A stretch of DNA of 35,359 nt, from the NCBI GenBank assembly GCA_021772915.1, contig JAJFLB010000030.1:1-35359 (forward strand). Direction: 5' to 3'. The translations under genes and the position numbers were made by a program. Positions 9,047 to 30,489 of the stretch are shown one piece after another; the stretch's first letter is position 1; each line of letters begins with the position of its first letter. The DNA comes from Gammaproteobacteria bacterium (GTDB taxonomy: Bacteria > Pseudomonadota > Gammaproteobacteria > Xanthomonadales > SZUA-36). The notes beneath the pieces are model-generated. The model worked only from the letters and a program-made list of their open reading frames with translations. It was not told where the DNA came from and ran no database searches.

Positions 9047-9997
9047 TCAGAAATCGACATGATTTGGACCTTTCAAATCCAACATTTCGCGCGCCTCATC
9101 AGGTGTCGCCAGTTCACGCCCGAATATCTCCGCGATCGTCTTAATGTCGTTCACCATCTCGACATTGCTCTTACATAACACGCCTTTGCGCACATAGATG
9201 TTGTCTTCCATTCCCACACGGACGTGTCCGAACATGGCCATCGCCAGTGCGCCCAAAGTGTATTGCCGGGGATAACCCACGCCAATAACCGACCAGTGAA
9301 AGTCATCAGGTCCAAAAATGCGCAGTGCTTCAGTTTGCATATGAAGAACTTCTGCCGGCGTTGCCCCGGTTCCACCTCGTACACCAAGAACGAATTGCAT
9401 CCAGATCGGACCTTTTAGAACACCATCCCGGATCATGTTGCGTGTATTGTAAAGCCCGCTCATGCTGAAGCACTCGCACTCCGGTCGGGTACCATTTTCC
9501 CGCATGACTTTGACAAAATATTCGAATTGCTCAGTCGAATTTGAAAATGTGCCGCTGTATGTAGACGACAGATAAGGTTTTTCCCAGTCATAGCGCCACT
9601 GTTTGACTCGAGGTACTACATGGTGAAGCGTATTGCTCACACTTTCAGGAGTCAAAGATGCCACTTCGGGTTTAAACCGCGTTACGGTACTCAGTCGTTC
9701 ATCCGGCGTTTGCCCGTATGCTCCTCCGGTTGTCACCCCGATGATCAGATCAGGGCACCGCGTTTTTACTTTGATCAGCATTTCTTCCCACCGGTCAATA
9801 TCCGATGTTGGACTGCCATCCTCGGGGTTTCGCACATGCAAATGCACAGCCGCAGCACCGGCTTTCCAGCAGGCATAACAATCATCAGCAATTTCGTCCG
9901 GTGTGATCTTGATGAAAGGGCTTTGCGAAGGCGTTGTATCAGTGCCTGTAATGGCAACTGAAAGTATCATCTTTGGCCTTTTCTCAGGTGGTAGCAT
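9047..9997 (-). CDS. Beta-keto acid cleavage enzyme (BKACE, DUF849; 3-keto-5-aminohexanoate cleavage type)
   Basis: BKACE enzymes condense a beta-keto acid with acetyl-CoA and split it into acetoacetate and a new acyl-CoA. Family marks are clear: AVHLHVRNPEDGSPT holds the two zinc-binding His of the HxH motif, and VGMEDNIYVRKG holds the third ligand Glu. TTGGAYGQTPDERL and VLGVRGGTGATPAEVLHM are other typical blocks. The frame is open as far as a GTG at 10120, but the protein family begins just before MILSVAITGTD. I prefer the ATG at 9997; 10036 and 9970 are alternatives, and 10036 would leave no room for a ribosome site because a 14-bp palindrome abuts it. The gene heads the leftward operon. 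The beta-keto acid substrate, set by a few active-site residues, is unknown. Confidence 0.9.
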   Translation of the reverse strand: MLPPEKRPKMILSVAITGTDTTPSQSPFIKITPDEIADDCYACWKAGAAAVHLHVRNPEDGSPTSDIDRWEEMLIKVKTRCPDLIIGVTTGGAYGQTPDERLSTVTRFKPEVASLTPESVSNTLHHVVPRVKQWRYDWEKPYLSSTYSGTFSNSTEQFEYFVKVMRENGTRPECECFSMSGLYNTRNMIRDGVLKGPIWMQFVLGVRGGTGATPAEVLHMQTEALRIFGPDDFHWSVIGVGYPRQYTLGALAMAMFGHVRVGMEDNIYVRKGVLCKSNVEMVNDIKTIAEIFGRELATPDEAREMLDLKGPNHVDF

Positions 9998-10036
9998 TGA
10001 ACCTATCCCATCGTTTCCTTTTAAAAGTTTATCCAT

Positions 10037-10070
10037 TATTTGATCAAATATCAAGATTATGTGATCAAAT
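10037..10070. promoter_or_regulatory. Composite TGATCA operator, copy A (BKACE / class V divergent region)
   Basis: A perfect 14-bp palindrome TATTTGATCAAATA (10037-10050) is followed by ATCAAG (10050-10055) and by TGATCAAAT (10062-10070). The two TGATCA centres are 21 bp apart, two helical turns. A copy in the opposite orientation at 22729-22761 matches at 26 of 33 positions. GntR-family FCD regulators typically bind short palindromes, and the only one encoded here sits beside the other copy, so it is the likely binder (inference). The site lies between divergent genes and could control both. Confidence 0.75.
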
Positions 10071-10131
10071 AAGTTGAATCCTCCTTGTCCGGAATGTAAC
10101 ATGCCACGATAAAGCCTCACCGACTTCCGAA

Positions 10132-11367
10132 ATGAAAGAAAATATCAAACTCGATCTTCCTTACGTGAGGAACCAATTTACCGCCCTATCCAACGAGTTG
10201 GCGTTTTTCGATAGTGCCGGAGGGTCGTATGTTGCCGAGAGCGTAATAGACTCCGCTTGTAGTTTCATGCGGGAAACGCCGGTTCAGCCCTACTCGCGAT
10301 TTGAACAATCCACCCAGGCAAACAGACAGTTATCCCGTGCCATAGAACAAACTGCAGCATTTATAAATGCCGAGCCAAGCGAGCTGATATTCGGACCTTC
10401 AACAACTTTGAATATGTATGTTTTAGCGCATGCCTTGAGCCCATTGTTTGCGCGGGGTGATGAAATCATCGTCACCAACCAGGATCATGAGGCGAACTCG
10501 GGTGTCTGGCGCAAGATGGCCGAGCACGGCGTTGTGGTTCGTGAATGGAAAATCGATCCTTCGACTGGAGAACTGGATCCGACTGACTTTGAAAACCTTC
10601 TGACGGAACAGTCGAAACTCGTTTGCCTGCCGCACTGTTCGAACATAGTCGGCTCAATTAACGATGTAGCCAGTGTGACGCGAAAAGCGCATGCGGCAGG
10701 AGCGCTTGTCTGTGTTGACGGTGTAGCTTTTGCTCCTCATCGCCGCATTGATGTCAAGCAGTTAGATGTGGATTTTTATTTGTTCAGCTTCTACAAGTTA
10801 TTCGGGCCCCACATCGCTCTGATGTTCATACGCCAGGAACATTTGGCTCAGTTGCACAATCAAAACCACTATTTCCTGCAAGATGATTTGTCGAAGAAAC
10901 TCAATCCCGGAGGCATGAACTACGAGGCGGTCGCTTCGTTACAAGGGATCTACCGATATTTTCAGGATCTTAGCCGGCATCACTTCGGAAGTGGCCGCGA
11001 AAGTGTCGGTGAGAGTGTGGAGCGCACCTACCCGTTGATCGCCCGACATGAGCAAAATATGGCTGGCCAATTGCTGGAGTACCTCAACTCCCACTCTCGC
11101 ATTCGACTCATTGGCCTCTCCGTGCCTGACGCTTCCCGCCGCGTTCCAACATTCTCGTTCACAGTCCGTGACAGGTCTTCACAAGATATCGTTGACGGGA
11201 TCATTCGCCACGGAGTAGGTGTCAACAATCATAATTTTTATGCTCGGCGCTGTCTGGAGGCTTTAGGAATAGATCCCCGTGATGGCGTTGTGCGGGCGAG
11301 CATGGTGCATTACAACAGTAGAAAAGAAGTCGACCGGCTGATTGCGGCGATTGATGCCACTGTCTAG
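10132..11367 (+). CDS. Class V PLP-dependent aminotransferase / cysteine desulfurase-like protein
   Basis: The 411-residue protein is a fold-type I PLP enzyme of class V, closest by eye to the cysteine desulfurase-like group (VC1184 type), and more distantly to isopenicillin N epimerases. The PLP Lys is K222 in FSFYKLFGPH, and the Asp that pairs with the pyridine nitrogen is D196 in VCVDGVAFAPH. The N-terminus VRNQFTALSNELAFFDSAGG is typical. A His in NQDHEANSG is in the usual cofactor-stacking position. No partner scaffold (SufE, IscU) is nearby, so a role in amino acid breakdown is likelier than cluster assembly. The gene is divergent from the BKACE operon across operator A and ends inside a perfect palindrome shared with the convergent hydrolase gene. 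Confidence 0.85.
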   Translation: MKENIKLDLPYVRNQFTALSNELAFFDSAGGSYVAESVIDSACSFMRETPVQPYSRFEQSTQANRQLSRAIEQTAAFINAEPSELIFGPSTTLNMYVLAHALSPLFARGDEIIVTNQDHEANSGVWRKMAEHGVVVREWKIDPSTGELDPTDFENLLTEQSKLVCLPHCSNIVGSINDVASVTRKAHAAGALVCVDGVAFAPHRRIDVKQLDVDFYLFSFYKLFGPHIALMFIRQEHLAQLHNQNHYFLQDDLSKKLNPGGMNYEAVASLQGIYRYFQDLSRHHFGSGRESVGESVERTYPLIARHEQNMAGQLLEYLNSHSRIRLIGLSVPDASRRVPTFSFTVRDRSSQDIVDGIIRHGVGVNNHNFYARRCLEALGIDPRDGVVRASMVHYNSRKEVDRLIAAIDATV

Positions 11368-11397
11368 CCCGGACTATTCATGAATAGTCCGGGCTAG
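11364..11397. terminator. Perfect 34-bp palindrome holding the stop codons of two convergent genes
   Basis: The arm CTAGCCCGGACTATTCA (11364-11380) is followed at once by its exact complement (11381-11397). The TAG stop of the class V gene (11365-11367) and the TAG of the leftward hydrolase (11394-11396) occupy mirror positions in the two arms. The long GC-containing stem suits a bidirectional terminator, but no T-run follows on either strand, so rho-independent function is not certain. Confidence 0.65.
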
Positions 11398-12557
11398 TGT
11401 ACTGCATCAGCACCGGTGGGCGTCAAACGTTTGATCATGCTGTGGATAATGTTGAGGGTAAATGCGGGGTCCTCATAGGGGAACATGTGCCCGGTGTTTT
11501 TTGGCGCCAAAACAACCTCACCCTGGGACGACAGCGAGGTCAACCGCCTTGAAGCATCGTCACTACCCTGGCAAATGTTTTTTAACTGAATATCCGTGAA
11601 GTCATACCGGGCGCGGAGATATTCCCGGGTCTGCTGGTGGTCGCTCGCTGGCAGGACGTTTGCAATCGGAACATTCCCGAGAGTACCTGTGCCGTCTGCC
11701 AGGTCGAAGGGATTCCTGCAAGCACTCCAGAGCGCGGATCCCATCGCACAGATTGCTTTCGGCAAGGCACTTAAGAATCGGATTTCGTCCAGAGGCGCCC
11801 CAATGATTTGATAGGGGGACTCGATGCCAAAACGCTTTTGCTTTATCCAATTCTCGAGCCCCAGATTCACGGCTATTGCATTCTTGATGGAGATCCGGGA
11901 CAAGGTGCCGAAAGATATCTTGCCCGCTGTCGTCATGTTCCACGGCGATGTCGCATCGAGCAAAACCAGTCCTGATACGAGCTCAGGAAAAGCATGGGCG
12001 AAGTTGACTGCAAGCAAACCGCCAAAGGAATGACCGACCAATAAAAACGGACCTTTCTCACCGGCACTGGAAAGAAGTCGGCCCAACTCATCTACTTCAC
12101 TGGCAACCGATCGCGGAAACGGGCCAGGGTCGCTCCAGCCGCTACCGGCGCGATCAAAAAGAATGGAACGAGTCTCGGTCGCGATGTCTTTGTGCAGGTG
12201 CTGCATTACCATACCCTGGTCGTGTGATCCGGGAAACCAGAGCACAACAGGGCCGTCTGATCTCACACCTTCTGCAAAAAGGTGCAATCTGAATCCACCA
12301 ATATCGACGAGCTTGCCTTGTGGCCGGTTATTTTTCATAAAGCTTCGAACCCGCAAGGCTTGCCAGCTCGCACTGGCCAACAGGGCGATAACCAGAATAG
12401 TCACCGTGCCTTGTACTATCCACATGACTGTTTTCAAGGCAGAAGGATCTTGCCCGCTTGCGAACGCACCAATGAGAATTGCCAGCATACCGAAGCAGGT
12501 CGAGATGGCCAGTCCCGCCCATTGCTTGCTCAAGAACACGTAAATTATGTCAGTCAT
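11394..12557 (-). CDS. Alpha/beta hydrolase with N-terminal membrane segments
   Basis: The 387-residue protein has the nucleophile elbow LLVGHSFGGLL (Ser177), an oxyanion-type motif in VVLWFPGSHDQG, and the catalytic His357 in NTGHMFPYEDP. Two hydrophobic stretches at about residues 13-33 and 43-63 should anchor it in the inner membrane, with the catalytic domain after residue 80. The substrate is open; esterases, amidases and epoxide hydrolases share this fold. It lies 9 nt after the serine hydrolase gene in the leftward TonB receptor operon. A truncated, frameshifted relative lies at 32484-33199 with long matching stretches (for example RFLSALPKAICAMGSALW), so the family was duplicated in this region. 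Confidence 0.88.
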   Translation of the reverse strand: MTDIIYVFLSKQWAGLAISTCFGMLAILIGAFASGQDPSALKTVMWIVQGTVTILVIALLASASWQALRVRSFMKNNRPQGKLVDIGGFRLHLFAEGVRSDGPVVLWFPGSHDQGMVMQHLHKDIATETRSILFDRAGSGWSDPGPFPRSVASEVDELGRLLSSAGEKGPFLLVGHSFGGLLAVNFAHAFPELVSGLVLLDATSPWNMTTAGKISFGTLSRISIKNAIAVNLGLENWIKQKRFGIESPYQIIGAPLDEIRFLSALPKAICAMGSALWSACRNPFDLADGTGTLGNVPIANVLPASDHQQTREYLRARYDFTDIQLKNICQGSDDASRRLTSLSSQGEVVLAPKNTGHMFPYEDPAFTLNIIHSMIKRLTPTGADAVH

Positions 12558-12566
12558 TTCAGCCTG

Positions 12567-14117
12567 TTATGCGACCCGCCGGTAGGCACGGTCGCCCAGC
12601 CAGGCGAAGGGAGAAGCTCGCTCCAAACGATCCAATTCAAATTGCAGGCGAGTAACTCCCGGACTGCCTGGCAAATCCACCAAGAACAGGCCGGCTCCAT
12701 AATGCTCCAGGGTGGTAGGTTTTTGCGTCATCGGATCTTCACCGGAGTCCGGAAGAGCAACGATTGAAGCTACCAGTCTGCACGCCTCCAGCTTGATCTC
12801 AATTCTTGTGTTCATGTTTTGGTAAATTCCAACGTATCTCGACACGTCAATGTCGGTCAATTGCCGCTTCTGTTGGGGATCCGACGAGTTAAGCCCCGAA
12901 AGTTCGGACAGAATACCCTCCACGATGTCTTTGAAAACACCTGTGCCACCATAACTATTTGTCAACAACACGACCGCAAGGTCGTCCTCCGGAACCACTC
13001 GAAGAAAGGACAACTGCCCGTACGTTCCTCCATCGTGGCCCAGGACAATTTTGCCTTGGCTGTCATCCACGGTCCAGCCCAGACCCTGTGCGGTAGGCAC
13101 AGCTCCGGATGGCCTTTGGATATGTACACATTGCATTTCCTGGGTGGAACGAGCCGTAAGCACCGCCGTACCCGTATGCGCATTGCCACCTGTCAGGTGG
13201 GGCCTCGTAAAAGCCACGACATCTCTGGCACTGGCCGATGTTGTTGATCCTGCAGCCATCATGCAATAGGGCATGAGTTGTTGTTGCAAAATAGAGATAT
13301 CCCCGGTTTCACTGTCGATTTTGTGGTTGACCGCAACCCTGTACCTAACACTATCTTCCGGTAATAATACAGTATGGTTCAGCTCAAGCGGGTGGATCAG
13401 TCCGCTGGTCACCGCACTGGCCCAGTTGTGACCGGTAACTGCTTGAACCAGTACCGCTAGTATGGCGTAGCCGGCATTGCAATATGAAAACCTGGTTCCA
13501 GGCGTAAAGAGTTGCGGAAGGTCGGCACACAACTCGAGATAGTTTTCATGTGCGTCCGAACCACGCCCGGTGTCTCTCACAAAATCGCCATCTATTCCAC
13601 TGCTGTGGCTTAATATCTGACGGACCGTTACGGCTTCCGATGCCGAACGATCATTTACTGCAAATTTCGGTAAATATCGCTTCATTGGCTGATCAAGGTC
13701 GATCAGCCCCTCATCAACCAACTGCATCACTATCGTTGCCGTGTAGAGCTTGGTTATCGATCCGACCTGGAACAGGGAATCAGCCGTCGTTTTAACTTTG
13801 GTGTCAACGTTTAATATACCGGCCGCCGCTTCGCTAATTCGACCACGATGATAGACCGCTATCGTTGCCCCGGGCACACGGTGCTTCTCGATGCTCGCTC
13901 CCAATTTCTCCTGGACGCCACTCAACACAAATTTTCTACTCGAATACCATTGCTGTTGCAAGTGAGTACTAGCCCGCATATTGCACAAGTTTCGCTGGGC
14001 TTTACTTGATTTCTTGAATGTTTCAATGGCATACAAACGTAATACAAGTTCGGTAAGAAATATAAAATGTGTCACTGCCGGTTTGTCGCCACATCCCGGC
14101 TGATTCCCCTTAAACAT
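12567..14117 (-). CDS. Serine hydrolase of the class C beta-lactamase / D-aminopeptidase family
   Basis: The protein belongs to the penicillin-binding-like serine hydrolases, which include class C beta-lactamases, DD-peptidases, D-aminopeptidases and esterases. The nucleophile motif SITK is at residues 120-123, YCN at 212-214, and HDG at 361-363 stands where KTG or HxG occurs. After about residue 410 a small beta-rich C-terminal domain follows (DVSRYVGIYQNMNTRIEIKL), common in the D-aminopeptidase/esterase members. The longest frame starts at 14117, giving 516 residues with an atypical N-terminus. The ATG at 13979 (residue 47) leaves a 470-residue protein and is a real alternative. The hydrophobic stretch FIFLTELVLRLY is weak as a signal peptide. 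The gene lies between the TonB receptor and the alpha/beta hydrolase, suggesting periplasmic or membrane-side processing of the imported compound. Confidence 0.82.
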   Translation of the reverse strand: MFKGNQPGCGDKPAVTHFIFLTELVLRLYAIETFKKSSKAQRNLCNMRASTHLQQQWYSSRKFVLSGVQEKLGASIEKHRVPGATIAVYHRGRISEAAAGILNVDTKVKTTADSLFQVGSITKLYTATIVMQLVDEGLIDLDQPMKRYLPKFAVNDRSASEAVTVRQILSHSSGIDGDFVRDTGRGSDAHENYLELCADLPQLFTPGTRFSYCNAGYAILAVLVQAVTGHNWASAVTSGLIHPLELNHTVLLPEDSVRYRVAVNHKIDSETGDISILQQQLMPYCMMAAGSTTSASARDVVAFTRPHLTGGNAHTGTAVLTARSTQEMQCVHIQRPSGAVPTAQGLGWTVDDSQGKIVLGHDGGTYGQLSFLRVVPEDDLAVVLLTNSYGGTGVFKDIVEGILSELSGLNSSDPQQKRQLTDIDVSRYVGIYQNMNTRIEIKLEACRLVASIVALPDSGEDPMTQKPTTLEHYGAGLFLVDLPGSPGVTRLQFELDRLERASPFAWLGDRAYRRVA

Positions 14118-14228
14118 GGCAATAGTGCCTTTAAGGAGTACTAGCTGAAGATATGACTCTGCACGCGATTAACCAGGTTACACTCGTGAAATCAACCGAC
14201 AATTCCGGCAACTCGTGCAATATGTGGG

Positions 14229-16322
14229 CTAGTATTGCACTGCGAAAAACACACCCAGAGTTCGTGGGCGCTGGTAGAACAATTCGCTAAGCTGCAGGAC
14301 AACTTTACGGTTATCGAACAAATTATCGGCGAATAATCCTATTTGCCAACGAGGCGATTGAAGAGTCAGCCGCAGATTTACAATGTCCAGTTCGTCGGAC
14401 GGCAAGGTCTCATCAACCCGTCCGAACGATTTTCCTGTATGGGTGTAGTCAGCCCTGAAAACACCATTAAACTTTTCGAAGACAGGACGCGAGTATTGCG
14501 CGGAAGCATTGAAAGTGAATTCAGGAACCGTAGGTAAACGGCTACCTGCTGGTGCGATCCCGGTAGGATTTTCAAGACTCGGTGTAGCTAGTGCCGGTTC
14601 GTCGATCTCTGCTTCAACGAATCCACCACCCGCTGTAAGCAGTAAACTCGGCGTAAGCTGCGCCATCATTTCCAGCTCAATACCAAAGGTATGGGCATCA
14701 CCAGCATTAGTCGTCCAAGCAATGGCCTGGTTTGCTGGGTCGCCTGACATCTGCACGTCTTTCCAGTCGACGTAATAAATCGCACCGTTAAAAATCAAGC
14801 GGCCATCGCTCCAGACCGATTTGAACCCCCCCTCGTAGCTCCAGGCTTTATCCTCTTTGTATTCGGCGACAAACAATGGGCTCGGATTGGGGATTTGGTT
14901 AATGCCGCCTGAGCGGAAACCCTGAGCTGCGGTCAAATAGACCAAAGCGTCATCACTGGTGTCGTAGGTAATATTCCACTTGGTCGTAATTGCGTCGTTG
15001 TCTGATTCGGCAAAAAATCCGACTATTCCAAATGGTGGAATATCGGTAAGAGAGTCCTTATTTTCCTCAAAATACCGGACGCCTGCCGTTACGTGCAACC
15101 GATCACTGATGTCATAGGTCAGTTCACCGAAAAATGCGAGTTGCTTCACGTCTTGTTCAAAAACGATACTATCGAACGGACTACCCTCAGCCACCGTTAC
15201 CGGTTCACTCCGGTCCTTGTAAAACGCACCACCGAGCCAGTGCAGAGGACCGTCTCCCGTCGAAGCCAACCGGATTTCCTGGCTGAAAATCTCAAAGTCA
15301 TTAATTAGTATGCCGAAAGGAAAGGAGTTTAACCCGATGCTACGATCGGTATACCCCGTAATCGAAACCAATTCGCTCCCACCCAAACTGTAATTAATAT
15401 CAAGTTCCAGAGTTGAATTTTCATCGTCCATGAATTCTGGACCGAAACCGGGAATGCTGGCAGTCTCGTCGATAGTGGAGCCAATTCCAGGGACTACACC
15501 GTAGGAGGAACCCAATGAAGCGTCCTGGTAATTGAACATCGCTCGCACCGTTAAATTATCCGAGACGTTTAGCTGGGCTGACACTCGCGCTACAATGGTT
15601 TCCTCGTCGTTAATTCCGCTTTCCCCGGTGGTCAAATCATCGATCCAGCCACCCTTGCTGCGATAAGAAACGACCGCTCGAATGGCTAGTTTGTCTTCTA
15701 CCAGGGGTATGTTAATCATTGCGTTGGCCAGGTAGTTGACAGCACTACTTCCTTCAGTCTTCGACCCCGTGCCTTCGAATTCGGCTTCCATCCTGTTGGA
15801 AGGCCTCTTGCTAAGAATCCGAATGGTTCCACCCATCGATCCCTCGCCAAACAACGTACCCTGTGGCCCTCGCAATACTTCAATACGCTCAACATCGAAG
15901 AGTTTGTAATCCGGCTCCTGAAAAGCGGCGTTAACGGAAAGTCCGTCAATATAGACCCCCACGGTTCCGACCCCGGCCAGCGGCGCCATACCACGTATTA
16001 CGATCCTGCTCCGGCCTGGCCCTCTCTCGGCAAAGGCAAGACTAGGCACAGTGCGAGCAAAATCGCGCATATCATCAGCACCCATGTCCTTCAACATTGC
16101 GCTTGAAAGTACTGCAACGCTCATCGCTAAATCCTGTAACCTTTCCTCTCTTTTTGTCGCAGTTACAATAATTTCTTCGATGACGAGATTCTCTTTCTCA
16201 AGACCATCCTCGTCGGTCGTTTGGGCAAACACCAACCCGCTACCCACTGCCAACGCGACAGTTAGTCCAAGCTTTGTTGCACCAGGCAACGTTTTTAATA
16301 TCTGTAGAATCGAAGGCGTCAT
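14229..16322 (-). CDS. TonB-dependent outer-membrane receptor
   Basis: The 697-residue protein starts with a signal peptide (about residues 1-33, hydrophobic LGLTVALAVGSGLVFA before QTTDEDG). A TonB-box-like stretch EEIIVTATKREERLQDL follows. The plug domain contains RIVIRGMAPLAGVGTVGVYIDG and VERIEVLRGPQGTLFGEGS. The barrel ends in a C-terminal aromatic strand (TLGVFFAVQY). Such receptors use the proton gradient through TonB to bring compounds across the outer membrane. The sequence style (IVTATKREERLQD, GPQGTLFGEGSMGGTIR) is that of receptors common in marine and sphingomonad-like bacteria, often linked to catabolic rather than iron genes. No iron or cobalamin genes are nearby, so the ligand is probably the island's growth substrate (inference). 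It leads the receptor-hydrolase-hydrolase operon. Confidence 0.93.
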   Translation of the reverse strand: MTPSILQILKTLPGATKLGLTVALAVGSGLVFAQTTDEDGLEKENLVIEEIIVTATKREERLQDLAMSVAVLSSAMLKDMGADDMRDFARTVPSLAFAERGPGRSRIVIRGMAPLAGVGTVGVYIDGLSVNAAFQEPDYKLFDVERIEVLRGPQGTLFGEGSMGGTIRILSKRPSNRMEAEFEGTGSKTEGSSAVNYLANAMINIPLVEDKLAIRAVVSYRSKGGWIDDLTTGESGINDEETIVARVSAQLNVSDNLTVRAMFNYQDASLGSSYGVVPGIGSTIDETASIPGFGPEFMDDENSTLELDINYSLGGSELVSITGYTDRSIGLNSFPFGILINDFEIFSQEIRLASTGDGPLHWLGGAFYKDRSEPVTVAEGSPFDSIVFEQDVKQLAFFGELTYDISDRLHVTAGVRYFEENKDSLTDIPPFGIVGFFAESDNDAITTKWNITYDTSDDALVYLTAAQGFRSGGINQIPNPSPLFVAEYKEDKAWSYEGGFKSVWSDGRLIFNGAIYYVDWKDVQMSGDPANQAIAWTTNAGDAHTFGIELEMMAQLTPSLLLTAGGGFVEAEIDEPALATPSLENPTGIAPAGSRLPTVPEFTFNASAQYSRPVFEKFNGVFRADYTHTGKSFGRVDETLPSDELDIVNLRLTLQSPRWQIGLFADNLFDNRKVVLQLSELFYQRPRTLGVFFAVQY

Positions 16323-16520
16323 TTGTTTGAATCTCTTTCAAATAATTTACATTAAAATTAGGCGTGCACTCGCACGACCAGCCTAATATGTAGCTTAGTT
16401 GGTTTGAATAATGGCCTAGTCCCGAACAATATTGATAACGTCAATTTCTGTGACATCGGTAGGAGCCCAATGTTAAAGGGTGATAAGTTACGGAGCATGA
16501 ACTATATTTTTTAAACGAGC

Positions 16521-17543
16521 ATGATGCCTGCACAACCAGAAAATCCGGTTCTCGTCGAGATAACCCGTGCTGACCAGGTGGAAAGCCAACACCGTGGCGC
16601 CATTGCCGTAGTCGGTGTTGATGGCAAACTTGTCAGGTCCTGGGGCGACATTGATCGTTTTGCGCATCCGCGATCATCTCTCAAGCCATTTCAGGCAATT
16701 CCCCTGATCGAGAGCGGTGCTTTTCAAGCCTATGGGCTGAGTATGCCCGATTTAGCGCTCTGCTGTGGCTCACACAACGCTGAACCCAAACACCTCAAAC
16801 GCCTGGCGGAATGGCTCGAACGCCTCGGCCTGGGGGAACAACATCTATTTTGTGGGCCACAACGTCCAGCCTGGTCATTGTTGGATGTATCTGGGGCTAA
16901 AGAGGCCCCAGGTGCCTCATTACTGGCTAATAACTGTTCGGGTAAACATATAGGGTTTCTGACCACAGCGATACATTTAGGCATCAGCACAGCCGACTAT
17001 TGTGATCTTGATCACCCGGTTCAACGGCTGGTCAAAGAAGTGGTTACGGAGTTCACAGACCATGTACCGAGCGAGTCTCAGACCTCTGTTGATGGATGTG
17101 GTGCACCAGCCTATTCGTTCCCCCTGCGGTCTTTTGCGCTGGCAATGGCACGGCTGGGGCGCCCCGAAAAAACAGGTGGTCAACGGACAGCAGCAGCGCA
17201 GTTAGTGGTCTCGGCAATGACCGCCCATCCATGGTATGTGGCAGGCACAGGAAGACCAGATACCACGCTAATGCAAGATTCAGGCTTTCCCGGCATTGCG
17301 AAGGGCGGTGCCGAGGGGTTCTTTGCGCTTTCAATTCCCGGCAAGGGTCTTGGAATTGCCATAAAGATCGACGACGGAGCGTACCGGGCGACTTCAGTTG
17401 CCGCGTCTGCTGTGCTAGGCCAACTTGGAGTTCTGGATCGCGAAGCCATGAGCCGACTAAAAGCCATTGCAAATCCCAGAATCCGGAGTCTGGGCGGAAT
17501 TCAAGTAGGCGAGATCAGACCATGCCTACAAACTTTTTCATAG
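16521..17543 (+). CDS. Class 3 L-asparaginase (Rhizobium etli type, Asparaginase_II family)
   Basis: The 340-residue protein belongs to the PF06089 family, serine-lysine amidohydrolases unrelated to the E. coli enzymes. The residues described for the R. etli ReAV enzyme are all present at a constant offset of 4: Ser52 and Lys55 (RSSLKPFQ), Ser84 (CCGSHNAE), and the metal-binding Cys139 and Lys142 (NNCSGKH) with Cys193 (DGCGAPAYSF). It has no signal peptide, so it acts in the cytoplasm. Two ATG codons open the frame; either could start. The gene stands alone, divergent from the TonB receptor and convergent with the M19 pair. It is intact and probably hydrolyses asparagine or a related amide released by the neighbouring peptidases. 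Confidence 0.88.
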   Translation: MMPAQPENPVLVEITRADQVESQHRGAIAVVGVDGKLVRSWGDIDRFAHPRSSLKPFQAIPLIESGAFQAYGLSMPDLALCCGSHNAEPKHLKRLAEWLERLGLGEQHLFCGPQRPAWSLLDVSGAKEAPGASLLANNCSGKHIGFLTTAIHLGISTADYCDLDHPVQRLVKEVVTEFTDHVPSESQTSVDGCGAPAYSFPLRSFALAMARLGRPEKTGGQRTAAAQLVVSAMTAHPWYVAGTGRPDTTLMQDSGFPGIAKGGAEGFFALSIPGKGLGIAIKIDDGAYRATSVAASAVLGQLGVLDREAMSRLKAIANPRIRSLGGIQVGEIRPCLQTFS

Positions 17544-17577
17544 CAATATGCTGCTGAATCGGTTACCTGAAGGACTT

Positions 17578-18579
17578 TTATTTCCACACATTTTCAGCTA
17601 CACGCAGCAAATTCTTGCCCAGAATCTTAAGCACATCGTATTCTGCGTAACCAAGACCCAAAAGACCTTCGGTAATTCGCGGCAGGCACTCCGGTGACGC
17701 AATTTTAATACTGCCCCCATATCCGAAGCCAGGAGGAAATGTCTCGGATTGAGTTGCTACGTCCGTGTCCAACTCCGAGGGATCGAAAACAAAATCCAGG
17801 CCGATGCCGACATGATCCGAACCTACTAGTTGGACCACATAATCGATATGGCGAACAAGATTAGACACGCTGGGATCATCGTCGGCCAGAAACAATCCAA
17901 TTCCGGTGATACCCACCACACCGCCAGTCCGTGCGCAAGCCAGGATTAACTCATCGGGTACATTTCTCGGGTGGTCTTTCAGGACTTTAGGGTTCGAATG
18001 CGAGAGAAGAACGGGATTGGTTGAATAATTGAATACGTCTCTTGTCGTGCGATAACCTGTATGGGAACAGCAGGCAACCATCCCAACTTTTGCCATTTCA
18101 TCAAGCACTTCGCGACCGAAGTCGGTCAAACCGGTGTCAATGTCATGGCAACCACCGCCGAGCTTGTTATTCAGATTATAAGCCATTAGCATCCAGCGGA
18201 CTCCAAGGTCATAAAACATCTGGATGAGGCTGATTTCATGCTCGATCGCTGCTCCGCCTTCGATGTCAAACGCCACCGCCAGTTTTCCATCAGCTTTGGC
18301 CTGATGGATATCATCAACTGACGTCACCAACGCGTAATCATCAGTGTGTTTAATCAACCATCGCCGCATAAACGCAAGTGTCAACACATGTTGCTGCCAC
18401 GGAATTTCGCCGTAGCCCACATTGACACAAGCCACGTTGACCCCGGCTGCGGCCCAGCGCTGAAGTTCCGGCAAGAACTTATCGTTAGTTTCGATCGGCA
18501 TACAGCCGTGATTGTCCCAGACCAGAGCCTCGCTATGCAGACGCGCCGCCTGGGGTCCAATATCCCAGTCATTCTTCAT
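17578..18579 (-). CDS. M19-family (renal dipeptidase-like) metallohydrolase, copy 1
   Basis: M19 enzymes are TIM-barrel amidohydrolases that cleave dipeptides, often with a D residue, and some open beta-lactam-type rings. In this 333-residue copy Glu107 (FDIEGG), His173 (CSHTGYRT), His194 (LSHSN) and the late Asp (GIGLDFVFDP) match the family. The first metal motif, normally HxD, reads H24-G-C26 (WDNHGCMP), so the usual Asp is a Cys. The start ATG at 18579 overlaps the stop of the upstream paralogue by 4 nt (ATGA), so translation is probably coupled. No signal peptide is visible; the protein is cytoplasmic, unlike lipid-anchored mammalian relatives. This is the last gene of the GntR operon. 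Confidence 0.87.
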   Translation of the reverse strand: MKNDWDIGPQAARLHSEALVWDNHGCMPIETNDKFLPELQRWAAAGVNVACVNVGYGEIPWQQHVLTLAFMRRWLIKHTDDYALVTSVDDIHQAKADGKLAVAFDIEGGAAIEHEISLIQMFYDLGVRWMLMAYNLNNKLGGGCHDIDTGLTDFGREVLDEMAKVGMVACCSHTGYRTTRDVFNYSTNPVLLSHSNPKVLKDHPRNVPDELILACARTGGVVGITGIGLFLADDDPSVSNLVRHIDYVVQLVGSDHVGIGLDFVFDPSELDTDVATQSETFPPGFGYGGSIKIASPECLPRITEGLLGLGYAEYDVLKILGKNLLRVAENVWK

Positions 18580-19577
18580 CGCCAGGCCTGTTTTGCAATG
18601 CGCAAGTAATTTTCCCCGAGTACCGCTCTGATCACTGCCTTGCTGTAACCTCTTTCAAGCATCATCTCAGTCAGTGCAGGAATTTGACCTGGTTTGGCGT
18701 AACTGAAACCGGGCCAGCCTGATTCGGTTGCCCCCGGCCACTCATCGGGCCTTGATCGAATAAAAGCATTGAGCTTATCCTTGCCAAAAACCACATCGAG
18801 TCCTAGCCCCACATGCTCCGGACCGACCAAGTCAACGATGTAGTCTATATGACGAAAAATTGTCTCGTTCCGGCATTGGGGATCTCCAAGGTAGTCGCTG
18901 GATCCGGAGATTCCGACCAATCCTCCGGTCTCTGCGCACGCCTTGATCTGATCATCCCTCAGGTTCCTGTAATGGGGGGCTATCGCGGTTGCGTTCGAAT
19001 GAGTAAACAGGACGGGTCTGGTTGCCTGTTCCAGCGCATCCATTGTCGTGCGATAACCAGTGTGACTGAGGTCAAGCAGCATACCGACACGCTCCATTTC
19101 GGCTATCAGGCGTGAGCCGAAACGGGTCAAACCACCATCGCAACGCTCAGCACACCCACTGCCAGTCGAGTTGCTCTGATTGAAAGCCAACAGATTATGG
19201 CGAACACCCAAATCGTAAAATATTTGAACCATGTCTACGTTGCGCTCAAGGCAACGCGTTCCCTCAAAGTGTAAGGTAACAGCCAGCTTGCCAGCTTGCT
19301 TTGCAGTCTCTATATCATTGACGGTTTCAACAAAAACAAGATTTACTGCATCCTGCTTTACACGGCGCCGGATTTCGGCAACCCGTTGTACAGCTTGGCT
19401 GATATTGTGGTTATCACCGGCAATGGTCAGAGACACTACATTGAATCCGGAGGCTGCAAATCGCGCCAGTTGGCCCAGATCATTGTTCATACTGGGTTCG
19501 AGCGGAAACACGTTGTCCCACACCAGCGCGTCCCGGTGTAGGGTGGCCGCGGCGTCACTGATATTCCAATCTTGCAT
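18576..19577 (-). CDS. M19-family dipeptidase-like protein, copy 2, with altered metal site
   Basis: This tandem paralogue has the same length (333 residues) and layout as copy 1. It keeps the Glu in LHFEGTRCLE, the His in DLSHTGYRTT and FTHSNAT, and the Asp in GLGLDVVFGK. The HxD metal motif near the N-terminus is gone: the aligned stretch reads VWDNVFPLEP, with Val23 and Pro25 where His and Asp or Cys should be. A two-metal site of the ordinary kind seems impossible. The protein might use one metal, act on a different substrate, or pair with copy 1. It starts 30 nt after the SDR gene and overlaps copy 1 by 4 nt. Confidence 0.85.
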   Translation of the reverse strand: MQDWNISDAAATLHRDALVWDNVFPLEPSMNNDLGQLARFAASGFNVVSLTIAGDNHNISQAVQRVAEIRRRVKQDAVNLVFVETVNDIETAKQAGKLAVTLHFEGTRCLERNVDMVQIFYDLGVRHNLLAFNQSNSTGSGCAERCDGGLTRFGSRLIAEMERVGMLLDLSHTGYRTTMDALEQATRPVLFTHSNATAIAPHYRNLRDDQIKACAETGGLVGISGSSDYLGDPQCRNETIFRHIDYIVDLVGPEHVGLGLDVVFGKDKLNAFIRSRPDEWPGATESGWPGFSYAKPGQIPALTEMMLERGYSKAVIRAVLGENYLRIAKQAWR

Positions 19578-19607
19578 GGTTGAGGTGATCCTTTAGTTTG
19601 GTACGCT

Positions 19608-20432
19608 TTAGGCCTGCTGGCAGATCAAACCACCGTCGACAGGCAGCACAACACCATTGATGTATCGGGATTCATCCAGCGCCAGGAAAACCGCAGCGTT
19701 TGCCACGTCCCAGGGCTCACCCATTTTCCCGGTCGGTGATGCCTGGTTCCTCTGCTTGATCAAGGCCTTCCTTCCGCCGTGACTCGCGGCGATATCAGGA
19801 TTGGCAAATAGTAACGGCGAGTTGATCAGTCCTGGCAAGATGGCATTGGCACGAATTCCCTGCTTGGCGTATTTGACGGCAACCGCCCGGGTCAGATGAT
19901 CTACTCCAGCCTTCGATGCGTAGTAAGCAATCTGATCGTATTGCGAAACACGAATACTTAAAATCGAAGAGATATTTGTAATAACCCCACCGCCCTGTTT
20001 CAACATCTGGGGGATGACATATTTACAACTCAGGAAAACACTTTTCAAATTACAGTCCAGGGAACGGTTCCAGTCCTCTTCACTTAGCTCCACCGGGCCT
20101 CCGAAGCAACTGATACCAACGTTATTATGTAAAATATCTAACTGCCCACACTCAGAAACAACAGTGCGAACAAGCTCGAGTACCTGTTGAGCTGAGGTCA
20201 CATCGACCGCCCTGTTTTCACACCATCCGCCTTCCTGTTCGATGATATGCCTGGTCTCCGCAGACCGTTCAGAATTGATATCAATAGCCCAGACCCTGGC
20301 GCCCTCTCGGGCATAGGCGATTGCCGATGCTCTACCGTTGCCAATTCCCGGACTGTCTCCCGATTCCGCCTCAGCGGACCCGGCGCCAAGAACTAGCGCA
20401 ACCCTGTTTTCCAACCGTTTTTCCATCGGCAA
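19608..20432 (-). CDS. Short-chain dehydrogenase/reductase (SDR) with enlarged glycine loop
   Basis: The 274-residue protein is a classical SDR oxidoreductase. The catalytic Tyr170 and Lys174 (YYASKAG), the Ser of NISSIL and the NNVG motif (103-106) are present. Asp51 (WAIDIN) after the second strand suggests NAD(H) over NADP(H). The cofactor loop, normally TGxxxGIG, reads GAGSAEAESGDSPGIG, about nine residues longer than usual; related SDRs with a GAG-S...GIGNGRA loop exist. It sits 5 nt after the ceramidase-like gene and 30 nt before the M19 pair, so it is in the same operon. It probably oxidises a hydroxyl group to a ketone in the pathway, which could supply a beta-keto acid for BKACE (inference). 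Confidence 0.9.
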   Translation of the reverse strand: MPMEKRLENRVALVLGAGSAEAESGDSPGIGNGRASAIAYAREGARVWAIDINSERSAETRHIIEQEGGWCENRAVDVTSAQQVLELVRTVVSECGQLDILHNNVGISCFGGPVELSEEDWNRSLDCNLKSVFLSCKYVIPQMLKQGGGVITNISSILSIRVSQYDQIAYYASKAGVDHLTRAVAVKYAKQGIRANAILPGLINSPLLFANPDIAASHGGRKALIKQRNQASPTGKMGEPWDVANAAVFLALDESRYINGVVLPVDGGLICQQA

Positions 20433-20437
20433 AGCCT

Positions 20438-21883
20438 CTATTCTGGTCCAGTGCCCTGGAGGGTGGAAAATTCGTCATCGTAAAAAAGACTATTCAGTAG
20501 ATCTATGGTCTCTGATATTAAAATTTCGGCCGCATCAGGTGCGAAGGGTGATCGCGCAATCTCGTATCCAGGTTGGTCTGTGTGGTACTTCTCAGGGCCC
20601 AGATAGGGCCCGGTTTTATCGAGGTAGGCCGCAAATATCGTATCGGCAAATGGCGAGCCATCCTTTATCGCTTTACCAATCTCGGCGAAGATTTCGCCTT
20701 CCGTTGCTACCAGCACTCGTTGGTTAATCCTCAGGGCCTTTATGGCCAAGGTAAAGCTCTGGTCTTCAATAATCTTGTCCAATGCAGACAGCGTATTTTG
20801 CGCACGCATTCGCTCGATGTCGGCCTGATTTGCTTCCACCGTATCCATTGATTGATTGCTCTTTTCAAGGTTTTTGATACGGGCTGAAATTTCAGACAAT
20901 TCTGCCAAAAGTGGTGCACGCATTTCTGTTAGAGAATTCTTGATAGGTAAACGGACAAAGCGTGCCGCTGTTCGAAATTTCATCGCAGGTTCTGGGTACC
21001 TGATGGTTTTCATGATTCCCAGAGGTGCCGCCGATTCGATCACATGATCCAGGACATCTTCTGTGTCGCCTGTTTGAATTTCCAGCAAAATTTTGGTCGC
21101 CTCACACCCCAGGATCCGGCCGAGTCGCTCGCTTTCCGAAACATCTTTTTGGAATGTTGAAACCGGGCAAACGTTGCCGCCGGCCGCTTGCAAGAAAATG
21201 CAGGTTGCCCCGCTTAACTCTTCTACTACGGCGCGAACTGTCCCCGGATAGTCGGGGCTGATCAGAGTGTTCTCTGGACCCAGAACATGGGGGTGACAGC
21301 CATAACTGACTATGCAGCCATAAGGAGTACCATCGTCATGATCGATACGGATTACACCCACGTCCGGGTCCATAAAGCCTGACCGATTGGGGGCGACGAT
21401 GGTTCGACCGTCATTCGTCACATAATTCCGGTTGGCGCCAATGTAGCTGGCGCCATGCCCAAATCCTACTGAAGCCGGAGCCAGACTATTGCGTGCCGCC
21501 CAAACCGCCTCGACCGCTTTCCCAGACAATTCGCCAACATAGGCCTTCACTTCATCTGCTCCGGGACCTTGATAGCTCGCCATGGTTAACGGTGGCGCAT
21601 GGGTATGGGTCGAAAACAGAAATATCTGCGTTTCAGACAACCCCGTTGAGCTGGCTATCGCTGACGCGATTTCTGAGGCCTGAGCAGCGGAAAGAAAACA
21701 AAGATCAAAGCTCAATATGGCGGCGTCATGGCCCTCGCAACTAAGCCAAAGGCAGGTAATGGAAAGCGGCAAGTGAATGCCTTCAGCTCTAATATGTCTC
21801 TGAGTTTTCCAAATTCCGCTCGGTGCATTGGCCGTAGGTGTGATGTCGCTGCGTCCGATACCTGCCTCAAGTCTCATCGCCAT
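20438..21883 (-). CDS. Neutral/alkaline ceramidase-like hydrolase (N-terminal domain type)
   Basis: The 481-residue protein resembles the neutral/alkaline non-lysosomal ceramidase N-terminal domain family (PF04734), zinc amidases. Visible marks are the opening GIGRSDITP, FSTHTHAPP (His-rich metal loop), VSYGCHPHVLG, SPDYPGTVR and FLQAAGGNVCP. True neutral ceramidases are secreted and larger, with an extra C-terminal domain; this one has no signal peptide and no such domain, so it probably works inside the cell on a smaller amide. Residues of about 310-350 are highly charged and may form a helix insert (LSEISARIKNLEKSNQ). It begins 21 nt after the GntR gene and leads into the SDR gene. Ceramide as substrate is not implied by the family assignment alone. 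Confidence 0.8.
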   Translation of the reverse strand: MAMRLEAGIGRSDITPTANAPSGIWKTQRHIRAEGIHLPLSITCLWLSCEGHDAAILSFDLCFLSAAQASEIASAIASSTGLSETQIFLFSTHTHAPPLTMASYQGPGADEVKAYVGELSGKAVEAVWAARNSLAPASVGFGHGASYIGANRNYVTNDGRTIVAPNRSGFMDPDVGVIRIDHDDGTPYGCIVSYGCHPHVLGPENTLISPDYPGTVRAVVEELSGATCIFLQAAGGNVCPVSTFQKDVSESERLGRILGCEATKILLEIQTGDTEDVLDHVIESAAPLGIMKTIRYPEPAMKFRTAARFVRLPIKNSLTEMRAPLLAELSEISARIKNLEKSNQSMDTVEANQADIERMRAQNTLSALDKIIEDQSFTLAIKALRINQRVLVATEGEIFAEIGKAIKDGSPFADTIFAAYLDKTGPYLGPEKYHTDQPGYEIARSPFAPDAAEILISETIDLLNSLFYDDEFSTLQGTGPE

Positions 21884-21904
21884 GCTGAAGTTCCCGGATT
21901 GTCG

Positions 21905-22627
21905 TTATCTTAATTCGTTGAGTTTTTTTGTTAGGAAGGCGATGGCGAATTTAATATCTTTAACGATGGCATTCCTTGCAGCCATGGGTTTTTTTTCCTT
22001 GAGAGCTTCGAGAACCGGGGTGTGATTGGCAAGGGATTCTCTGGCACGCTCTGGATCTTCGGAAACAAAGTAAAGTACCGGCCCGATCTGCAGCCATAGC
22101 GTTTGGATAAGCTGCATCAGAGTTTCCGAGTCCGCCAAACCATAAAGCATCATGTGGAAACGGCGATTTTCAGCCAGGTAGGCATCGTGTTTCTCAGCCT
22201 TGGCGGCCTCTATCTGGGCGGTGTTGATTGCATGGAGTTGGGCAATATCATCGGCTGTTGCCCTGGGAACAGCCTGCGCTGCGGCCAAACCTTCCAACGC
22301 ATAACGTACGGTGGCAATTTCGTGCAAACGCCCAGCAGTCATCAGCGGCACCACGATTGAGCGGTTAGGGCGCACTTCCAGCGCGCGCTCACCTACCAGA
22401 CGGTTCAATGCTTCGCGCACCGGCATGGCACTGGTACCCAGGGCATGCGCCAAGGGTCGCACGGTAATCGTTTGGTTCGGGTGGAAGCGGCCAGCTATTA
22501 AAGCCTCGCGGATTTGTTCATAGACATGCACGTGCAGAGGTTGACGAGCGATGGGAGCCAGAAACTCGGGACCGGGACCGGGACCATTTTCATCCTTACT
22601 TTGAGTTATTTCAGCTGTCAGGATCAT
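21905..22627 (-). CDS. GntR-family transcriptional regulator with FCD domain
   Basis: The 240-residue protein has an N-terminal winged helix (PLHVHVYEQIREALIAGRF, then LAHALGTSAMPVREALNRL) at about residues 28-95 and a C-terminal helical FCD ligand-binding domain at about 105-230 (ENRRFHMMLYGLADSETL, NHTPVLEALKEKK). FCD domains usually bind a metal with Asp and His residues; here the His of RRFH and NHT remain, but the residue four before the first His is Asn rather than Asp. The family mostly represses catabolic operons until an organic acid or amino acid ligand binds. It is the first gene of its operon, next to operator copy B, with a good promoter. It is therefore the likely regulator of both composite operators. 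Confidence 0.9.
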   Translation of the reverse strand: MILTAEITQSKDENGPGPGPEFLAPIARQPLHVHVYEQIREALIAGRFHPNQTITVRPLAHALGTSAMPVREALNRLVGERALEVRPNRSIVVPLMTAGRLHEIATVRYALEGLAAAQAVPRATADDIAQLHAINTAQIEAAKAEKHDAYLAENRRFHMMLYGLADSETLMQLIQTLWLQIGPVLYFVSEDPERARESLANHTPVLEALKEKKPMAARNAIVKDIKFAIAFLTKKLNELR

Positions 22628-22696
22628 CTGTTTAACTTAACTTAACTTTCCTTTCCTGCCCATGTGCCATTGCCTCACATGCCAAATCATTCCGTC

Positions 22697-22725
22697 ATAT
22701 TACACATGGCTATGCGTAAATTCAA
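22697..22725 (-). promoter_or_regulatory. Promoter of the GntR operon
   Basis: On the minus strand, TTGAAT (22725-22720) and TAATAT (22702-22697) are separated by exactly 17 bp, a near-consensus sigma70 promoter about 70 bp before the gntR start. Operator copy B ends 3 bp upstream of the -35 box, so a bound regulator would touch RNA polymerase. Confidence 0.6.
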
Positions 22726-22728
22726 TTA

Positions 22729-22761
22729 GTTTGATCATTCATGCTTGATTTTTGATCAAAT
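22729..22761. promoter_or_regulatory. Composite TGATCA operator, copy B (gntR / MFS divergent region)
   Basis: Two TGATCA cores at 22732-22737 and 22753-22758 have centres 21 bp apart, with CTTGAT (the complement of ATCAAG) between them at 22744-22749. The right core extends to the 10-bp palindrome TTTGATCAAA (22751-22760). Read on the minus strand, the 33 bp match copy A (10038-10070) at 26 positions, including the cores and the middle ATCAAG. It lies between gntR and the MFS gene and probably serves autoregulation and transporter control. Confidence 0.75.
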
Positions 22762-22892
22762 AGAGCACATCCTAATGGACAGAAATCCTGTGGCTGGTTC
22801 CAGTGCCTCAATATGCATCAATGACTGGCCCTGGGGCCTACAGCACCGGAAAAACAGGATCAAATAATCGTTTTGAGTTGGAGATCACATAA

Positions 22893-24296
22893 GTGAATCA
22901 AACCGAGAGCACCGTATCCAATCACAGATTGCCGCGGTCTCAGCTTATTGCGTTCGCCCTGCCAGGTTTCGTCGGTTCATTCATATTTGGCCCTCTTGGC
23001 GGGATACTGCCCACTTTATACGCCAAGAATTTTGGCATTGACCTGGCGTTCATCGGACTCATCCTGTTTGCTTCTCGATTTTTTGATATGGCGACAGACC
23101 CAATCATCGGACACTTGTCCGACAAGACAAAGACACGGATCGGACGGCGTAAACCGTGGATTATTGCTGGCTCTTTAATCTCCTTACTTTGTGTCTACAG
23201 ACTGTTCATCCCAGGTGAAGATCCTGATGGCTGGTATTACCTTCTATGGTTCATGTTGCTCTACCTGGCCTGGACGATGTCAGAAATTCCGTACAACGCC
23301 TGGGTCACTGAGTTGACCCGCGATTACAACGAACGCACAAGGATTATCACCTTCCGTAACGTATCAGGGGCTATTGGCGCCATCGGCTTCGCTGCGGCTC
23401 CGCTATTGCCGGTTTTTTCGAGTGGCGAAATGACGTTTGATGTTCTCAAATACGTCGCCTGGTTCGTAATGATTGTATTTCCCCTGGCTGTGATCATCGC
23501 CATGGTTTGGGCACCACAAGGCAAACATGTCGCGGTAACAGAAAAAGTCAGCCTGTCTGGGCTCTATGATTCAGTCAGGTCGAACCGGCCTTTCTGGGCT
23601 TTTGCCTTAGTATTTATCTCATTTGGACTGGGGACCGGTATGTATGGCGCTCTTAAATTCATGTTTCTCGATACTTACCTTCTGATCGGTAACAAGGTGT
23701 CTTACTTTCTTATCGCAAATTACGCCATGGCCCTTGCCAGTATGCCGATTTGGCTCAAACTCATTTACACCTTTGGCAAACACAGGGCCTGGGCTGCCAG
23801 CTGTGTTGGAATAGCCTTATTCACCATACCAATGTTGGCAATCCCGCCAGGGCCGGGAGCATTTATCCCGTTCCTGATTTTGAGTCTGCTGGTCGGACTT
23901 GCGATGGGTGGTGGGATGGTTGCGCCAATGGCAATGTTGGCCGACCTGATAGACTACGATATTCTAAAGACCGGTACGAACCGGGCGGGTAGTTATTTTG
24001 CCATTTCTACAATGATGGTGAAGGCAAACGCAGCGTTTGGGGCAGCAATGGGATTTTGGATCATCGGCTGGTTTAACTACGACGCTCAGAGCAAGGCACA
24101 TGCGCTTGACGAACGAATCGGCCTGTTTCTCGCCTTCGTCATTTTGCCAGCGGTCTTTTTTCTTATTACGGGCCTGATCGCCTGGCGCTTTCCCATTAAT
24201 GCAAAAAGACAAGCGATCATAGCAAGGCGCATTCAGCAACGAGCTGAACGTGCCGCGCGCACCAATCCAACTCAAGAACACGCTCCAGCCAGTTAG
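22893..24296 (+). CDS. MFS transporter of the glycoside-pentoside-hexuronide (GPH, MelB-like) family
   Basis: The 467-residue protein is a 12-helix inner-membrane carrier. The GPH signature is clear near the N-terminus: FFDMATDPIIGHLSDKTKTR followed by IGRRKPWI. GPH carriers usually move sugars or other small solutes with Na+ or H+. Members of this branch are also common in catabolic islands beside TonB receptors, where the cargo is not a sugar. The start is a GTG at 22893 with GGAG about 9 nt upstream; no better start is in frame. It is divergent from gntR across operator B and is followed by the AraC gene 69 nt later. It probably carries the compound from periplasm to cytoplasm. Confidence 0.88.
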   Translation: MNQTESTVSNHRLPRSQLIAFALPGFVGSFIFGPLGGILPTLYAKNFGIDLAFIGLILFASRFFDMATDPIIGHLSDKTKTRIGRRKPWIIAGSLISLLCVYRLFIPGEDPDGWYYLLWFMLLYLAWTMSEIPYNAWVTELTRDYNERTRIITFRNVSGAIGAIGFAAAPLLPVFSSGEMTFDVLKYVAWFVMIVFPLAVIIAMVWAPQGKHVAVTEKVSLSGLYDSVRSNRPFWAFALVFISFGLGTGMYGALKFMFLDTYLLIGNKVSYFLIANYAMALASMPIWLKLIYTFGKHRAWAASCVGIALFTIPMLAIPPGPGAFIPFLILSLLVGLAMGGGMVAPMAMLADLIDYDILKTGTNRAGSYFAISTMMVKANAAFGAAMGFWIIGWFNYDAQSKAHALDERIGLFLAFVILPAVFFLITGLIAWRFPINAKRQAIIARRIQQRAERAARTNPTQEHAPAS

Positions 24297-30466: not shown

Positions 30467-30489
30467 GTCATATATTCATAATATATGAC
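30467..30489. promoter_or_regulatory. 23-bp palindrome upstream of the Lrp gene, probable operator
   Basis: GTCATATATT (30467-30476) and AATATATGAC (30480-30489) are perfect 10-bp arms around CAT. The site is AT-rich and lies in the divergent region between the Lrp gene and the genes to the right, as expected for an Lrp/AsnC-type autoregulatory operator. Confidence 0.6.

Follow-up and report, generated by a model that had tools for sequence, protein, structure and literature searches.

Two direct-repeat sites in a gammaproteobacterial contig as candidate operators of a local AraC-family regulator

The 35,359-nucleotide contig JAJFLB010000030.1 of a gammaproteobacterium (assembly GCA_021772915.1), called the window here in its full length, carries two similar intergenic elements, A (10038-10070) and B (22729-22761), in opposite orientation and 12.7 kb apart. 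Each lies between divergent genes: A separates a BKACE gene from a class-V aminotransferase/cysteine desulfurase-like gene, and B separates the gene for a GntR-FCD regulator from that for a GPH/MFS_2 transporter. An AraC-family regulator is encoded in the window as well. An earlier, sequence-only reading had described the divergent genes around A and B and, in each element, two TGATCA cores with centers 21 bp apart around a middle ATCAAG; all of this was confirmed. We consider it probable, on comparison of sequences, that A and B are two AraC/XylS-type activator sites bound by the AraC-family protein in a small local regulon, of which the GntR gene would be a target and its product not the binder.

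The identity of 26/33 given earlier for the two 33-mers was borne out, and the best one-base shift of A against B raises it to 27/33 (10037-10069 versus 22730-22762). On the plus strand the sequence of A from 10039 to 10069 is TTTGATCAAATATCAAGATTATGTGATCAAA, and on the minus strand that of B from 22760 to 22730 is TTTGATCAAAAATCAAGCATGAATGATCAAA. Both are polar direct repeats of the form TGATCAAA-N13-TGATCAAA with a period of 21 bp, and in both a TTGAAT-N17-TAAYAT stretch follows at a constant distance; conservation thus runs past the 33 bp reported before, through TTGAAT and then TGTAAYATG in both sites. All four repeats point one way relative to the promoter-like pair. The distal repeat is the palindrome TTTGATCAAA in both copies, and the proximal repeats, TGTGATCAAA in A and AATGATCAAA in B, are asymmetric. 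Because the promoter-side AAA arm is kept in 4/4 repeats (the other arm, TTT, in 2/4, the distal two only) and the proximal repeats are not palindromic, we read A and B as direct repeats rather than as two palindromes. The proposal of the sequence-only reading, two dimers bound cooperatively to a pair of palindromes, is therefore not supported. ATCAAG occupies the place expected for box 2 in the distal repeat; in the proximal repeat the -35-like TTGAAT stands there. With a repeat length of 15 bp, adopted by analogy with XylS and SphR, the two repeats of A agree at 14/15 positions; B shares the two TGATCAAA boxes at 21 bp, yet agrees at 9/15 over the 15-mers. Separately, GGATCAAATAATC and AGATCACATAAGTGAATC, spaced 25 bp apart across the GPH gene start (22857-22899), form a further, weak pair that by eye looks like the operator's proximal half.

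In both A and B, TTGAAT starts 12 bp after the proximal TGA and the -10 hexamer of the putative promoter lies 35 bp after it; the -35-like box overlaps the proximal repeat by 3 bp. The class-V protein matches TIGR01976 with an E value of 2.9e-99 and 333.1 bits, under the cutoff of 352.35; its homologues are at most about 44% identical and yielded no footprint. On the other side of A, the Pfam domain of BKACE starts at residue 50 of the open reading frame (ORF), and the true start is probably downstream of the ORF start, near 9998 by eye. A pair in the BKACE direction, TTGATA/TAAACT (10054-10026), has its -35 inside operator A; one such pair was found, against 0.8 expected from shuffles. It is possible that the two sites also control BKACE and GPH, which lie on their opposite sides.

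Table 1. Operator repeats, promoter-like pairs and genes around A and B, with predicted roles
Feature	Position	Strand	Remark
Operator A distal repeat TGATCAAATATCAAG	10041..10055	+	Box 1 TGATCAAA, box 2 ATCAAG
Operator A proximal repeat TGATCAAATAAGTTG	10062..10076	+	21 bp from distal; 3-bp overlap with -35-like box
Operator B distal repeat TGATCAAAAATCAAG	22744..22758	-	
Operator B proximal repeat TGATCAAACTAATTG	22723..22737	-	
Promoter-like pair TTGAAT-N17-TAACAT	10074..10102	+	Putative; toward class-V gene; 4/6 + 4/6 to consensus
Promoter-like pair TTGAAT-N17-TAATAT	22697..22725	-	Putative; toward GntR operon
Class-V aminotransferase/cysteine desulfurase-like gene	10132..11367	+	Predicted target of A
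BKACE ORF	9047..10120	-	Divergent from A
GntR-FCD regulator gene	21905..22627	-	First gene of operon downstream of B; predicted target
Rest of predicted B operon	17578..21883	-	Ceramidase-like, SDR, two M19 dipeptidases
Ceramidase-like gene	20438-21883	-	Predicted B operon
SDR gene	19608-20432	-	Predicted B operon
M19 dipeptidase gene, first	18576-19577	-	tblastn only
M19 dipeptidase gene, second	17578-18579	-	Predicted B operon
GPH/MFS_2 transporter gene	22893..24296	+	Divergent from B
AraC-family regulator gene	24366..25439	+	HTH_18 E 4.8e-20; candidate binder of A and B

The source genome was scanned whole (4,679,591 bases, or 4.68 Mb, in 71 contigs; 97.96% complete). The earlier statement that there is no third copy held at this scale, a 31-bp pattern matching only A and B at up to 3 mismatches. 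The string TGATCAAA-N13-TGATCAAA occurs exactly twice, and the next best place has 2 mismatches, apart from reverse readings of A and B. Bare TGATCA-N15-TGATCA is not rare, with 57 places in the genome at up to 1 mismatch, five of them exact; therefore the longer element is what counts. The proximal repeat together with the promoter-like pair, a pattern itself written from A and B, has two perfect matches in the genome, A and B, and allowing up to 3 mismatches adds none.

One could suppose that two AT-rich intergenic stretches happen to match. A 27/33 match turned up somewhere in the 35-kb sequence in 5/40 dinucleotide shuffles, self-inverted hairpins being left in the count, and similarity alone is thus not decisive; A/B comes third in the actual window, after a hairpin and a paralogous gene pair. 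Conservation beyond this genome was not found, the composite being present in 0/150 relatives at up to 3 mismatches (151 genomes with the source genome), and this too speaks for coincidence. A shifted control, with a spacer one base longer, gave no hit in the source genome and 2 hits in the 151. An 18-base core was found in 38 genome_contigs stretches, none above 26/33 to the full consensus, with 18 of those positions fixed by the search; these look like chance (the ORFs were read around one of them, L081), which leaves conservation of the TGATCAAA site outside this genome unsupported. Nonetheless, A and B both lie in promoter regions, are unique in the genome with no more at 3 mismatches, and stay in register beyond the 33 bp, through the -35 and -10. 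For these reasons we place the pair above chance and regard coincidence as very improbable.

What might bind the two sites? The regulators identified by a Pfam scan of 20 window ORFs include GntR-FCD, the AraC-family protein and a protein of the Lrp/AsnC family. Upstream of the Lrp/AsnC gene there is an inverted repeat, TCATATATT-CAT-AATATATGA (30468-30488), possibly its own operator. The sequence-only reading had named GntR-FCD as the likely binder, and one can envision that it binds palindromes as a dimer, autoregulates from B and also controls A. B does sit in the promoter region of gntR itself, the palindrome of the distal repeat is perfect, and a GGATCC core can occur in operators of VanR-type FCD proteins. 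The distance from ATCAAG to the distal center is 9 bp, within the 7-12 nt at which PMC4494728 places extra half-sites for some GntR-family groups. The same paper gives TKGT/ACMA as the FadR/FCD consensus, with named exceptions that include FadR-subfamily proteins with unusual motifs, and a paper on HypR, also of the GntR family (PMC6608401), repeats the GT/AC expectation. GntR-FCD is of this FadR/FCD type (McbR/YncC-like; its best solved relative is mcbR, 4p9f) and its gene adjoins B, but the consensus is absent from A and B, and an exact TKGT-N2/3-ACMA box was found in none of the regions counted as intergenic. The proximal repeats, moreover, are non-palindromic in both copies, and TTGATCAA is absent from 27/29 fetched loci of GntR homologues (about 3.5 kb each; homologues at most 39% identical). 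Plasmid homologues of GntR reach 42% identity, with flanks that were left out of the TTGATCAA comparison. Together with the adjacency of the promoter-like pairs and the geometry beside AraC homologues described below, this makes GntR-FCD an unlikely binder.

About equally unlikely, in our view, is a regulator encoded elsewhere, for instance one of LysR type. For such a protein, the TTGAT-N5-ATCAA at the distal repeat would serve as a T-N11-A box, and a second half would follow 21 bp closer to the promoter. Indeed, TTGATCAAATATCAA in A and TTGATCAAAAATCAA in B fit T-N11-A, and a two-turn spacing upstream of the -35 also suits LysR activators. None of the 20 window ORFs in the Pfam scan matched LysR; LysR genes were sought nowhere else in the genome. 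A local regulator is favored by the finding that both sites stand on a single 35-kb contig and that the genome has no others.

This brings us to the AraC-family protein. Its C-terminal part is a double helix-turn-helix (HTH) domain (PF12833), which aligns with the DNA-binding domain of Escherichia coli AraC, 2k9s (Foldseek E 1.1e-4, TMt 0.79). No Pfam domain was found in its N-terminal half, which is modelled as strands and a long helix, in a poor model with a mean predicted local distance difference test score of 60.4. Homologues are present in 19/398 genomes of the order at an E value of 1e-25; at 1e-45 the one positive among 369 genomes of the class is the source genome itself. Repeats were examined in six of the AraC-positive genomes (G042, G053, G069, G026, G011 and G268) and on contig C31 of the source genome. 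The homologues of G042 (39% identity over 219 amino acids), G053 (31% over 251) and G069 (31% over 296) stand in clusters with the same kinds of gene as the window: M19 dipeptidase, TonB receptor, GPH transporter and alpha/beta hydrolase.

Spacings of 19-24 bp were surveyed first. In each of 12 promoter regions (four from the window, one from C31 and seven from other genomes), the highest-scoring 15-mer direct repeat with a 21-bp spacing was then compared with that in 500 mononucleotide shuffles. The repeats were strong in 4/12 regions (at most 8/500 shuffles): window A (14/15; 0/500), the TonB promoter of G053 (12/15; 0/500), the hydrolase operon of G053, so labelled from its ORFs as read, with no family search behind the name (11/15; 2/500), and the TonB promoter of G042 (11/15; 8/500). 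When the G042 and G053 sites were condensed by eye into a consensus, TGACGNCRGCMCRA twice, it recovered both corresponding sites in G069, which had not been used in writing it, at 24/26 and 23/26; G069 and G053 belong to one genus. At the scan threshold of 18, controls averaged 0.35 hits per 20 kb, and the extra hits elsewhere, one of 19 in L133 and two of 18 in L194, were taken as chance. In all, the 21-bp geometry stands at six sites beside homologous regulators in these three genomes, two of the sites being weak alone. In addition, an NA...T hexamer lies 35 bp (six sites) or 36 bp (two sites) after the proximal TGA in 8/8 promoters, two from the window and six from the relatives (TAACAT, TAATAT, CAAACT, CAGACT, CAGACT, CACACT, CAGACT, CAAACT); at other non-overlapping positions from +20 to +47 such a hexamer never exceeds 4/8. 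The first HTH helix is also similar (NRTKLFYGFK versus NRNKLAVGFK).

A number of observations count against assigning A and B to the AraC-family protein. Both promoter-like pairs are weak (8/12 to consensus) and fall below the cutoff of the promoter scanner, which did not call them. In an unguided test B itself is not significant (9/15 with the first eight bases shared; 150/500 shuffles), the window TonB/asparaginase region shows no clear site (9/15; 125/500), the G042 hydrolase site is weak (9/15; 79/500), and the paralogous AraC gene on C31 has no 21-bp repeat upstream (7/15; 466/500). The geometry was not found at the AraC promoters of G026, G011, G268 and C31, and the G026 regions reach 12/15 at 28 bp and 11/15 at 20 bp. 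The box in the relatives is TGACGN..GCMCRA, different from TGATCAAA, so that specificity is extrapolated across 27-31% full-length AraC identity; nor is the corresponding position in the relatives occupied by anything like a -35 hexamer (GAACCA, GACTCA, CAGAAA, GAACGG). The -10 register was a post hoc observation, and the six sites in the relatives form orthologous sets and do not count as six independent events. Finally, a scan for the whole layout (repeats of at least 10/15 plus NA...T) recovers 5/8 sites, missing B, the G042 hydrolase and the G069 hydrolase, and hits elsewhere once in the window, twice in L136 and once each in L194 and L138. The repeat was weak or absent in the remaining regions: window GPH-AraC (9/15; 31/500), G026 AraC-TonB (9/15; 141/500), G026 AraC/M20 (9/15; 196/500) and G042 M19-AraC (6/15; 454/500). 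As for the C31 locus itself (L139 10152-13682), it is a paralogous cluster of AraC, hydrolase-like and M19 genes, with the AraC protein at 32% identity.

No further homologue in the score range of those from G042, G053 and G069 was found among 398 order, 369 class and four family genomes; the last are the family of G042, three of which carry the AraC gene. Close orthologues of AraC and GntR are absent from nine sampled congeners, and because of this the region looks acquired. Transposase-like ORFs, recognized by eye, lie near both contig ends (1760-3008, 4103-4972 and 34652-35317), and the region looks like an acquired island. Plasmid matches for GntR, AraC and the ceramidase-like protein were all below 60% identity. 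In three papers on bacterial regulation, the motif string appeared within primers only.

Elsewhere in the window, an inverted 26/33 match joins 13958-13990 and 14211-14243, near the start of a beta-lactamase-fold gene and the end of a TonB gene. Two alpha/beta hydrolases (11394-12557 and 32546-33199) have a 28/33 stretch in common, the second apparently shortened. The second AMP-binding ligase (28125-29651) is split into two ORFs with a gap at 28679-28764, and the gene looks frame-broken.

On the most likely reading, the AraC-family protein would sense a substrate of the island, the presumed inducer, and then bind A and B. At the proximal repeat, touching the -35 hexamer, it would recruit RNA polymerase, the predicted direction of control being activation. 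From A, the gene for the class-V pyridoxal phosphate (PLP) enzyme would be transcribed, and from B the GntR/ceramidase-like/SDR/M19/M19 operon; GntR would perhaps provide a second regulatory layer. The proposal of one regulon thus stands in part: one regulator probably links both promoters, while the several operons first envisioned shrink to two promoters with a shared -35 and -10. A more far-reaching possibility, which we hold to be doubtful, is that of a transferable catabolic island with a private activator-operator pair (TGATCAAA twice), a cascade from AraC to GntR-FCD and the degradative operon, and binding at A that activates the class-V gene and shuts off BKACE. A single event might do both, since the distal repeat of A overlaps the -35 of the possible BKACE promoter. 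If the assignment to AraC is right, the class-V PLP enzyme gene and the GntR/ceramidase-like/M19 operon are joined in one predicted regulon with a named candidate regulator. It would also add a predicted AraC operator specificity, with no conserved match found elsewhere in the genomes searched. The sequences compared also suggest that, among related AraC clusters, the box changes in sequence and the spacing of the repeats at 21 bp is retained.

By analogy, the layout at A, at B and in the relatives would be of the kind described for XylS and CdhR. According to PMC4225500, XylS binds two direct repeats, the second of which overlaps the -35 by two bases. XylS at Pm and our sites thus both have two direct repeats upstream of the -35 with the proximal one touching it (by 2 bp for XylS and 3 bp here); unlike ours, the XylS repeat is TGCAN6GGNTA, where the window has TGATCAAA, and the regulator and the genes differ. 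For CdhR of Pseudomonas aeruginosa, PMC5806209 describes GGTCGC half-sites with a 15-bp spacer in a 34-bp contact region. The spacer, and with it a distance of 21 bp center to center, is the same as here, as it is for its relatives GbdR, SouR and ArgR; unlike A and B, the CdhR site lies far upstream (class I), and CdhR belongs to the GATR subfamily, whereas our AraC protein has no N-terminal Pfam domain. SphR of P. aeruginosa (PMC3900636) regulates a ceramidase gene and recognizes a pair of 15-bp repeats with 6-8 bp between them. It is thus alike in being AraC-type, in its two 15-bp direct repeats, in having very few sites per genome and in its neutral ceramidase target. It is unlike our system in its site, TGNCCSNNRNNSNCC, and the ceramidase here is distantly similar (NCBIfam 25.9 bits, cutoff 1200). 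Set beside these systems, the sites are ordinary in kind and new in specificity.

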